Shown here: piece after piece, positions 23,076 to 25,843 of the stretch
How the letters are laid out: every line of letters begins with the position of its first letter
Numbering within the stretch: the first letter of the stretch is position 1
The notes under the pieces: generated by a model
What the model was told of the DNA's origin: nothing
Seen by the model: only the letters and a program-made list of their open reading frames with translations
Database searches by the model: none
DNA from: Synechococcus sp. HK05
Lineage (GTDB): Bacteria > Cyanobacteriota > Cyanobacteriia > PCC-6307 > Cyanobiaceae
Direction: 5' to 3'
Assembly (NCBI RefSeq): GCF_019104765.1
Contig: NZ_JAHRXJ010000004.1
Coordinates: forward strand, 248,001-312,000
Length of the DNA stretch: 64,000 nucleotides
Made by a program: the position numbers and the translations under genes

Positions 23076-23402
23076 ATGGACGAACCTCGTTTTCTGGCCG
23101 TGCGCGTGGGCGACCTCGTGGCCGTGCGCCGCACCCCGGATTGGTGGGTGGGGCAGGTGATCCACGCCGAGGGCGGAGCACGCTGCAACGCCAACTCGCT
23201 GTTTCAGATCGCCTGCATCGACACGGGCGTAATCCGCACCGTGAATGCCGATGCCGTGATCGACATCCTCTGCCCGCGCGATCAGCAGAGCTCAGGACCG
23301 CTCGAGCCGGCGCACAATCACAGCCATCAGGCCAAGCGAACCGGCCAGTGCGATCAGGAGGGCAATCGTCATGGAGCGGTCCGGCAACGGCGCCGATTCT
23401 GA
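23076..23402 (+). CDS. DUF3104 protein, 108 aa
   Basis: DUF3104 proteins are short beta-rich proteins found almost only in picocyanobacteria. FLAVRVGDLVAVRRTPDWWVGQV, IHAEGGARCNANSLFQIACIDTGVIRTVNADAVIDI matches the family's G-D-x-V … W-W-x-G-x-V … N-S-x-F-Q-x-x-x-x-D-T-G … V-N-A-D order. The final 40 residues are histidine/glutamine-rich and do not look like the family, so the true domain ends near residue 65. ATG 23028 in frame is an alternative start. It overlaps the next gene by 32 bases. Confidence 0.75.
   Translation: MDEPRFLAVRVGDLVAVRRTPDWWVGQVIHAEGGARCNANSLFQIACIDTGVIRTVNADAVIDILCPRDQQSSGPLEPAHNHSHQAKRTGQCDQEGNRHGAVRQRRRF
23292..23372 (-). CDS. Possible 26-aa single-helix membrane peptide
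   Basis: On the minus strand ATG 23372 opens MTIALLIALAGSLGLMAVIV then RRLERS. It is a perfect short membrane helix with a positive C-terminus, the shape of cyanobacterial photosystem or cytochrome b6f small subunits. It lies wholly opposite the non-conserved tail of the DUF3104 frame and shares its CATG with the start of the plus-strand gene at 23371. It may be the reason that region is conserved; unproven. Confidence 0.3.
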   Translation of the reverse strand: MTIALLIALAGSLGLMAVIVRRLERS

Positions 23403-23889
23403 CCCCTTGCTGTTCGTGTACGGCAGCCTCAAGCGCGGCATGGCCAACCACCAGGAGCTGCAAGGGGCCACCGGACTGGGCGACGCACGCCTGCACGGGC
23501 TGGCGCTCTACGACCTGGGCCCCTTCCCGATGGCGATTGCCTGCAGCGAGCCAGGCAGCGCGATCGAAGGCGAGCTCTACCGGGTGAGTGCGGCGCTGCT
23601 GGAGCAGCTCGATCGCTTTGAGGGAGCACCACGCCTCTACCAACGCGAGCTGCACCACCTCAGCAGCGGTGAGGCGATCTGGGTGTATGTGGGGCGCGCA
23701 CGGCAGGTGCGCCACGTGCAGCGGCTGAGCTCCGGGTGCTGGCAGGGGCCAGCGGCAGGCTTCAGGCGAGGGGAAGCGCCACCAGCCAACGGCCCGCCGC
23801 GGCCAGCAGCAGCGCCAGAGCTGAAGCCCCCAGCCAGGCCTGACGCGAGCGGGCCAGCTGACGGCGCAGCAGCACCACCGCCCAGCTGA
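23371..23889 (+). CDS. Gamma-glutamylcyclotransferase-like (GGCT/AIG2) protein, 172 aa
   Basis: The GGCT fold begins with LLFVYGSLKRGMANHQELQG, holding the YGSL substrate loop, and continues ARLHGLALYDLGPFPMAI, AIEGELYRVSAALLEQLDRFEGAPRLYQR, where the glutamate of EGELY is the usual catalytic acid. The domain is complete by about residue 125. The remaining residues are proline/alanine-rich and lie opposite the last 128 bases of the polyferredoxin gene, so a stop codon seems to have been lost. Substrate (gamma-glutamyl amine or peptide) unknown. Confidence 0.8.
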   Translation: MERSGNGADSDPLLFVYGSLKRGMANHQELQGATGLGDARLHGLALYDLGPFPMAIACSEPGSAIEGELYRVSAALLEQLDRFEGAPRLYQRELHHLSSGEAIWVYVGRARQVRHVQRLSSGCWQGPAAGFRRGEAPPANGPPRPAAAPELKPPARPDASGPADGAAAPPPS

Positions 23890-25843
23890 GCCCCAGCACC
23901 ACGGTGGCGCTCTGGCAGAACGCGATCACATGGGGATCCGCGCTCCAGGCCGGGCCAGCGAGCAGACCCGACACCGGCAGCAGCGTGCCGGCTTCAGCCA
24001 TCCCGAGCGGCAAATGGCGCGCCACCAGCAGCGCCCAGATCAAGGGCAAGAGCCCGTAGAGGGTGCGGATCAGCCGAGCCGGAGAGAACCAGATCCGGGC
24101 CGCAAGAAACAGCGCCGAAGGCAGTGCCAGCGCAAGGGTTGCCGCTGCCAAGCGCGGCAGCCAGGGCCCCTCATGCAGGCTGACCGGCGCTAGCGCACTC
24201 CAGCCCAGGAAGCGCTGCCAGTGGTGGAGGCACACATCGCCGGCCAGCACCAGCACCAAAGCCGGCTCGCCGGGCGGCAGGCTCATCTCCCGCTGAATAT
24301 CGGCCGCAGGAGGTCGCAAGGCAAGCTGCACCGAGCGATGCGGACAGGCCTGAGCGCAGGTGAGGCAGAGCACGCAGTTGCGGTTGTCGGCCAGGTGGGC
24401 CGGGTGGGTGCCCAAAGGGCAACCTGCGGTGGCCAGGCCTTCACCATCGGCAGGGCCACCCTTGAAACAGGCGTAGGTGCTGCAGCTGCCGCTGCAGGTG
24501 CCCACCTGGGCCCGCAGTTCGGTGATGGCGAGCTTGGCGAACAGCCCGTTCATGCCGCCCACCGGGCAGAGATAACGGCACCAGAAGCGCTTCTCGAAGC
24601 GCAGCGAACCGATCACGGCGCCGGCGGTGATCAGCAGCAACAGACAACTGCTCAACCAGGCGGTGTTCTGCAGGTTGCAGAGCTCCTCCCACAGCAGGAT
24701 CAGCGCAAAGCCGCCCGCCAGCAGCGGTGAGGCCCAGCGATCGCTGTCGCCCCGCGGCCAGCGCTGCGGCTGAAAGCCCAGGCGCCGAGCCAGCCGCTGG
24801 CTGATCTCCCCCCACACCATGAAGGGGCAGAAGGAGCACCAGAGGCGCCCCACCAGCGGGAACCCCAGCAGGATCAGCGGCCACCACCAGGCCCAGAACA
24901 GATTGAGGGCACCGTTGTGCTGGCGGTCCTGGGGCCCAAGCCACAGCCACAGATTCACCAGCACAAACAGCCAGCTCACCAGGCCGAACAGCAACCCGTT
25001 CCAGAGCCATGGCGCCCGCATCCACTCCCTGAGCTGAGGCTTCCAGCGCCAGATGTCGAAGCGCAGGCGCTGCTGGCGCGGAGCGGTCCAGAACACGTCG
25101 TCGGGCAGCACGGCAGGCCAGTCCTGCCCCTGGCGGCGCACCTGCTGCAGGGCGCGATAGATCAGCACCTCCAGCTCCCGCAGGTTGTTGGGGAAGTCGT
25201 AGCTCTGCAGGCGCTTCACCACCGCCTCCGGCACCTCCGGTGGCACCGGCCAACCGAGCTTGCGGCTGCGTTGGCGCACGCCATAGCGGAGCCATTCGCC
25301 GAGGTCCTGGCGGCGCACCCGCAGCGGCGGCACCCGGATCAACGTGCAACAGCGATCCAGGGCCGGCAGGCTGCTCTCCGCCGTGAAAAACAGGCGGCCC
25401 GCAAACGTGTGGGTGAGGCCGCCCGCACACCACTGGCCGCTGCGCGCCAGCTCCAACAGCTGTTCCTGCAGCGGAGCAGGCACTTGATCGATCTTGTCGA
25501 TCAGCAGTGAGCCCTCTCCCACCAGATCGAGCAAGGGCGGTTCCGCGCCATCGGATCCCGTGCCAAACACCTCGCTGCCGTCGGCCTTCAACAGCGCTCC
25601 ATCGAGCCGCAGCATCAACTGCTGCCGTTGCGCCGAGCCGTAGTGGATCAGCGCGGCGAGGTTGTCTTTCTCAAGGCCCGGTTCACCGCTGATCAGCACC
25701 GGCCGGCGCTGCGGATCCTGGGCCGCAAGCCGCACGGCATCGCGCAGGCTGCGGGCATAACGGCTACTGCCCACCACACCGCGGCGTGGCTGGGGAACCA
25801 GCAGCGGAGCCAGGCGCAACAGCTCGGCGTTGGGCGAGGGCAC
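23762..25843 (-). CDS. NtrC-type AAA domain fused to membrane polyferredoxin, 693 aa
   Basis: Residues 20-235 resemble the sigma-54 activator AAA domain, but the motifs are decayed: Walker A is GEPGLEKD (53-60), Walker B GSLLIDKID (111-119) has Lys for the catalytic Glu, and no GAFTGA loop is present; the sensor-2 arginine in FPNNLREL remains. Residues 280-450 have several membrane helices with NapH/CcoG-like cysteines (C336/C339, C422/C426), then C450/C454/C459/C475 and a ferredoxin motif C490-x2-C-x2-C-x3-C-P. Further membrane helices follow. It starts at GTG. It cannot act as a normal sigma-54 activator; a membrane electron-transfer or redox-sensing role is inferred. Related fusions exist in other cyanobacteria. 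Confidence 0.85.
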   Translation of the reverse strand: MPSPNAELLRLAPLLVPQPRRGVVGSSRYARSLRDAVRLAAQDPQRRPVLISGEPGLEKDNLAALIHYGSAQRQQLMLRLDGALLKADGSEVFGTGSDGAEPPLLDLVGEGSLLIDKIDQVPAPLQEQLLELARSGQWCAGGLTHTFAGRLFFTAESSLPALDRCCTLIRVPPLRVRRQDLGEWLRYGVRQRSRKLGWPVPPEVPEAVVKRLQSYDFPNNLRELEVLIYRALQQVRRQGQDWPAVLPDDVFWTAPRQQRLRFDIWRWKPQLREWMRAPWLWNGLLFGLVSWLFVLVNLWLWLGPQDRQHNGALNLFWAWWWPLILLGFPLVGRLWCSFCPFMVWGEISQRLARRLGFQPQRWPRGDSDRWASPLLAGGFALILLWEELCNLQNTAWLSSCLLLLITAGAVIGSLRFEKRFWCRYLCPVGGMNGLFAKLAITELRAQVGTCSGSCSTYACFKGGPADGEGLATAGCPLGTHPAHLADNRNCVLCLTCAQACPHRSVQLALRPPAADIQREMSLPPGEPALVLVLAGDVCLHHWQRFLGWSALAPVSLHEGPWLPRLAAATLALALPSALFLAARIWFSPARLIRTLYGLLPLIWALLVARHLPLGMAEAGTLLPVSGLLAGPAWSADPHVIAFCQSATVVLGLSWAVVLLRRQLARSRQAWLGASALALLLAAAGRWLVALPLA

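Follow-up and report, generated by a model that had tools for sequence, protein, structure and literature searches.

The locus and its product

A 64,000-nt stretch of the Synechococcus sp. HK05 genome (the window) contains a minus-strand ORF at positions 23762-25843 that begins with GTG, encodes 693 amino acids and proved to be a real gene. In the predicted protein, an AAA domain of sigma-54-activator (bEBP) type is followed by a membrane polyferredoxin of NapH/FtrD type with nine helices. A preliminary description had recognized a degenerate activator domain fused to a polyferredoxin from the sequence alone, and Pfam, a sequence match to PspF and Foldseek supported that anatomy far beyond chance. 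Pfam models matched the protein at residues 25-137 (Sigma54_activat, E = 4e-8, above the cut-off), at residues 175-235 (AAA_lid_14, E = 1e-5, marginally below the cut-off), in two stretches of Fer4_5 (E = 1e-6) and, weakly, at residues 487-502 (Fer4). The AlphaFold model had a mean pLDDT of 79, with low confidence in the iron-sulfur loop. Coordinates of the features are given in Table 1.

Table 1. Features of the fusion gene, by position in the window
Feature	Residues	Coordinates	Strand	Evidence
Whole gene, putative pseudo-AAA (sigma-54-activator type) plus membrane polyferredoxin		23762..25843	-	Near full-length relatives, 60-97% identity
AAA core	21-175	25319..25783	-	Sigma54_activat 25-137; AF2 model; Foldseek
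AAA lid, NNLREL with sensor II Arg kept	176-240	25124..25318	-	AAA_lid_14; alignment
Altered Walker A, GEPGLEKDN; retains Lys59 and Asp60, has Glu in place of the second Gly	53-61	25661..25687	-	Lys in 147/147 family members
Degenerate Walker B, LLIDK; Asp116 kept, Lys117 replaces catalytic Glu	113-117	25493..25507	-	Glu in 0/147
Site of deleted GAFTGA (sigma-54-contact) loop	94-103	25535..25564	-	Alignment with E. coli activators
Membrane polyferredoxin core, four helices, most conserved part	278-516	24296..25012	-	Fer4_5 x2; conservation 0.79; dN/dS 0.03-0.16
CX2CP motif	Cys336, Cys339	24824..24838	-	Invariant
CX3CP motif	Cys422, Cys426	24563..24580	-	Invariant
Ferredoxin-like segment	Cys450, 454, 459, 475, 490, 493, 496, 500	24341..24496	-	12-Cys pattern in 144/145 full-length members
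C-terminal five-helix membrane extension	517-693	23765..24295	-	AF2 helices 526-688; positive-inside charges

Vulcanococcus is a near relative of the host (genome 2.53 Mb, 99.97% complete) and has a locus that is 94% identical; another relative reaches 97%. A domain search found the fusion to be the only Fer4_5 protein of the host. Its gene overlaps a gamma-glutamylcyclotransferase ORF (plus strand, 23371-23889) tail to tail by 128 bp (23762-23889). No nap or ftr genes lie beside it, the neighbors being the gamma-glutamylcyclotransferase (GGACT), a glutathione S-transferase (GST) and a phosphoesterase. A phage or viral origin was rejected, as IMG/VR held no relative. No paper describing this architecture was found in the open-licence literature.

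Ancestry of the AAA half and absence of sigma-54

Among solved structures, PspF was the top sequence match (E = 2e-13), and the top 50 Foldseek matches of the AlphaFold model were sigma-54 activators only. Searches with the AAA part using phmmer matched 8/8 activators and left RuvB unmatched, in agreement with the likeness to an NtrC central domain pointed out earlier. Another AAA clade as the origin was rejected on the RuvB result and because no other AAA Pfam family was found on the window protein. The domain shares its fold and lid with bEBPs such as PspF, NtrC and NorR (PF00158 plus PF25601), with PspF, NtrC1 and their relatives heading both the sequence and the structure matches; the P-loop Lys is common to both and, in the window's family, so is the sensor-II Arg. 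Unlike the bEBPs, the fusion has neither GAFTGA loop, Arg fingers, catalytic Glu nor DNA-binding domain, its genome has no sigma-54, and it carries Fe-S membrane helices.

A profile search with PF04552 found no sigma-54 in the host genome while detecting its positive controls, and only one convincing fragment turned up among 292 genomes of the phylum. Both results uphold the preliminary statement that cyanobacteria lack sigma-54, as does a published report that they are essentially without it (PMC3162934). A cyanobacterial genome that also has the fusion (G125) contains an orphan 207-aa ORF (L159:1917-2537, minus strand) in which the sigma-54 DNA-binding domain is convincing (PF04552, E = 2e-16); the ORF may be what is left of an RpoN that was lost or acquired. 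Another genome of the phylum (G106), in which PF04552 detected no sigma-54, encodes a protein (L152:748-2709, minus strand) with a tandem pair of sigma-54-activator AAA domains; the first of the pair has GAYTGA, and its Walker motifs are intact.

Distribution and phylogeny of the family

Matches to the fusion protein were found in 120/292 sampled genomes of the phylum, so that it represents a conserved family and not a one-off. Near full-length matches among the 292 genomes were confined to the window's class; in genomes outside the class the match was limited to one half of the protein, in a single case the AAA half and otherwise the membrane half. A scan of genome contigs yielded at least 567 relatives, and almost all of the 80 that were kept carry labels such as Synechococcus or Cyanobium. 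Genera of the window's family with small genomes (1.6-1.9 Mb) do not have the gene. Two contigs titled Bifidobacterium breve (L069) and Prochlorococcus marinus MIT 9215 (L099) carry it at 70% and 59% identity, respectively, and the former, at least, looks like a mislabelled metagenome bin. In one genome (G257, locus L020) the gene is frameshifted near the ferredoxin segment, and is either a pseudogene or the product of a sequencing error. The AAA half was kept in every intact relative examined.

Relatives beyond the window's family are mostly ~850 aa long and begin with a CRP-like cNMP_binding domain, a feature outside the view of the preliminary description. Pfam found no such domain (PF00027, CAP_ED) in the window protein or its family, and 106 bp separate the window gene from the next gene. 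The CRP-like part of the relatives is without its helix-turn-helix (HTH); its phosphate-binding cassette aligns poorly to CRP, and the cAMP-contacting Arg was not seen.

An AAA tree separated the family into clade A, to which the window protein belongs, and clade B, a supported group of ~900-aa proteins with about 33-40% identity to the window protein. Support was 94/87 for clade A, 99/99 for clade B and 100/100 for the activators, and the tree leaves the branching order among the three without resolution. The shared architecture makes it likely that the fusion arose only once, although the AAA tree does not prove it. Within clade A, the AAA part has evolved faster than the Fe-S part, and a long branch leads to the window's family. 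Clade B members such as WP_281009908 (Pseudanabaena galeata) and BAZ78296 (Aulosira laxa) have the three-part architecture of the class-wide relatives; they differ from the window protein in their CRP-like N-terminus, a GxGKT P-loop, adjacency to cysK and, sometimes, a plasmid location.

State of the ATPase site

The ATPase motifs were surveyed in 147 family members aligned with seven E. coli activators. The P-loop Lys was present in 147/147, the catalytic Walker-B Glu and the GAFTGA loop in 0/147, and both Arg fingers were absent throughout, their segment having been deleted. The preliminary description had reported the Walker motifs and the GAFTGA loop of the window protein as altered or gone. 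The loop is indeed deleted, and Walker B is altered, with Lys117 in place of the catalytic Glu but Asp116 still present; Walker A is changed, mainly at its second Gly, rather than lost, and is less damaged than had been claimed. The deleted Arg-finger segment extends that list. Compared with GExGTGKE in true activators, the window's GEPGLEKD still has the Lys and ends in an acidic residue. The second Gly is altered in 101/112 clade A rows and kept in 35/35 of clade B, where 35/35 also have the Thr of GxGKT and hence an intact P-loop. Clade A members near the base of the AAA tree retain GEPGLGKD, which points to an apparently stepwise erosion. At Walker B, D-x predominates in the window's family and NN in the rest of clade A, and clade B has a mixture of DN, NN and SN.

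The AAA part is under purifying selection, with dN/dS of 0.07-0.31 between close relatives, and GEPGLxKDN and much of the lid are strictly conserved across the class. Its overall conservation is 0.61 vs. 0.79 for the Fe-S part. A loop of the AAA domain is deleted in genus g9, and some genomes have further loop deletions. Pfam found no helix-turn-helix domain in any member scanned; in the window protein the C-terminus consists of membrane helices. By its motif pattern the AAA half would be a pseudo-ATPase, in which hydrolysis is unlikely in both clades, while nucleotide binding appears plausible for clade B and doubtful for clade A. Since the genome has no sigma-54 and no DNA-binding domain was found, the AAA half is better described as a pseudo-AAA module than as a working activator.

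The membrane polyferredoxin half

Twelve Cys residues, arranged as CX2CP, CX3CP and an eight-Cys ferredoxin-like segment, are conserved in 144/145 full-length members. Positive charges alternate over the loops (7/1/5/0/10/0/2/0/2/0) in a positive-inside pattern, from which nine helices are predicted, with all of the Cys residues on the cytosolic side together with the AAA part. This half is also under purifying selection (dN/dS 0.03-0.16) and is more strongly conserved than the AAA part.

NapH/MauN-type ferredoxins and FtrD (Fer4_5, PF12801) likewise have membrane helices in which paired CX2-3CP motifs precede a ferredoxin-like segment; the fusion differs in its additional five-helix C-terminal part, its pseudo-AAA domain and the absence of adjacent nap or ftr genes. 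The NapH model matched the membrane half with E = 2e-9 but at 37 bits, which does not reach the curated cut-off of 213. Of the "NapH/CcoG-like" affinity proposed earlier, the relation to NapH is detectable and that to CcoG was not shown; the relatives also include stand-alone proteins of Deinococcus and polyferredoxins of the FtrD type. A Rhizobium FtrD-like protein is homologous to the membrane half (phmmer, E = 1e-13). The closest proteins found outside the cyanobacteria, along with haloarchaeal ones, were those represented by the Deinococcus ficus "4Fe-4S binding protein" WP_027463891, which aligned with the membrane half along its full length, C-terminal helices included (phmmer, E = 1e-37); the Deinococcus and haloarchaeal proteins have neither an AAA nor a CRP-like domain. 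Stand-alone homologs, known from Deinococcus, haloarchaea and Rhizobium, occur with ferrous-iron permease operons and metal genes. The Rhizobium one adjoins FTR1, a cupredoxin and an Iron_transport protein in an FtrABCD-type locus, a system that takes up ferrous iron (PMC11966278, PMC5681537). Existence of these stand-alone homologs with iron-permease and metal genes argues that the membrane half is a self-sufficient module. In a plasmid collection searched with the membrane half, only the two cyanobacterial matches were seen as fusions. Fed9 (Slr2059) of Synechocystis was considered as a described relative and rejected, because neither its published cysteine numbering (84-125) nor its description as a two-cluster protein agrees with this family (PMC4284462).

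Gene neighborhoods

In clade B, which the preliminary description had not seen, a cysteine synthase gene (TIGR01139) lies on the same strand and <=35 bp downstream of the fusion gene at 14/30 loci. It was the commonest recognizable neighbor in the 23 clade B neighborhoods, followed by petC, DUF2892, a nitronate-monooxygenase-like gene, psbA and rhodanese. Cysteine synthase occurred in 14/23 clade B neighborhoods vs. 1/18 in clade A (Fisher p = 3e-4, indicative only, as the loci come from related genomes). Pseudanabaena and Aulosira plasmids (L170, L171) carry islands in which the clade B fusion is accompanied by cysK, psbA, petC, a rhodanese-like gene and either DsrE or a DsbA-like gene. These islands look like sulfide-response cassettes; polysulfide is known to induce psbA, petC, cysK2 and rhodanese genes in Synechococcus PCC 7002 (PMC12466478).

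The 18 clade A neighborhoods showed no conserved partner and, outside the Cyanobiaceae, no conserved sulfur neighbor. A clade A operon was looked for in 19 kb around the 18 class-wide members and rejected: the genes that recurred were a SasA-like kinase, at 8 loci, and a glycosyltransferase, at 4, and this was judged weak synteny. Within the window's family, glutathione S-transferase was a neighbor at 32/45 loci and gamma-glutamylcyclotransferase at 19/45.

Proposed function

On balance, we favor the view that the fusion is a membrane electron-transfer protein regulated or assembled by a cytosolic pseudo-AAA domain derived from a sigma-54 activator, and we give this reading a little better than an even chance. 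The chemistry would be done by the NapH/FtrD-type half, whose 12 conserved Cys residues may hold [4Fe-4S] clusters on the cytosolic face and which, by analogy with NapH only, probably exchanges electrons with the quinone pool. Lacking the means for ATP hydrolysis, Arg-finger active sites or sigma-54 contact, the AAA half would serve as a regulatory or assembly module, perhaps sensing nucleotides in clade B with its intact P-loop, while in the window's clade A its part may be no more than structural. The sequences themselves show the domains, the missing catalytic parts, their conservation and the lack of sigma-54; what we infer for the fusion protein is its cluster content, topology, exchange with quinones and regulation. 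For clade B, the best reading of the neighborhoods adds a link to sulfur metabolism. Points against the favored reading are the faster evolution of the AAA part in clade A, the gene's absence from small genomes of the window's family, its frameshift in G257 and the low confidence of the modeled iron-sulfur loop. Reuse of an activator-derived AAA domain in a cyanobacterial redox protein is likely, judging from sequence, because the domain is under purifying selection and the fusion is kept throughout the family. The earlier suggestion of a redox-linked regulator of electron flow is compatible with all of the findings, and its component of domain reuse is well supported anatomically; its regulatory component is putative. 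A more specific scenario, which we regard as possible but speculative, is that cyanobacteria early on took up the AAA domain as a sensor that binds nucleotide without hydrolysing it and gates the Fe-S carrier. Clade B would then couple electron flow to the synthesis of cysteine when sulfide is stressful, and clade A, its site further eroded, would maintain a constitutive electron balance.

The AAA half might instead be a functionless passenger, slowly decaying after the loss of its activator job while the membrane polyferredoxin does everything. Its lower conservation relative to the Fe-S part, a Walker B eroded differently in each clade and the loop deleted in genus g9 fit such decay, and in clade A the faster evolution, long basal branch and loop deletions could mean exactly that; yet dN/dS values well below 1 between close relatives, the class-wide invariance of GEPGLxKDN and much of the lid, and retention of the AAA half in all intact relatives examined make this explanation unlikely. 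We consider it slightly less probable still that both clades are sulfur- or thiol-specific carriers that pass electrons to or from the metabolism of sulfide, persulfide or cystine, with clade A as the housekeeping version and clade B adapted to sulfide stress. The cysteine synthase beside clade B, the nearby psbA, petC, rhodanese, DsrE and DsbA-like genes, several of kinds that polysulfide induces, and the gamma-glutamylcyclotransferase and glutathione S-transferase beside the gene in the window's relatives are all in line with such a carrier. However, clade A has no conserved sulfur neighbor outside the Cyanobiaceae, where the gene order may be plain synteny, and the stand-alone homologs adjoin iron transport genes.

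It is very improbable that the protein is a membrane-tethered, redox-sensing transcription regulator acting with sigma-70-type RNA polymerase, in the manner of GAFTGA-lacking activators of the TyrR type. TyrR likewise has no GAFTGA loop, the AAA half is of activator ancestry and the relatives have a CRP-like N-terminal domain; but no helix-turn-helix occurs at either end of any member scanned, the CRP-like part included, and the Arg fingers and catalytic Glu that TyrR keeps are absent. If the favored electron-transfer reading is true, the family would be a rare case in which the engine of a transcription activator was turned into the control module of an electron-transfer protein and conserved across much of a class, and the adjacency of cysK in clade B provides a concrete hypothesis for its role. 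The findings also explain "sigma-54 activator" annotations in cyanobacteria without sigma-54: what has been annotated is a membrane redox protein, and it is misleading to call it a "nitrogen assimilation regulatory protein", as in the case of BAZ78296.
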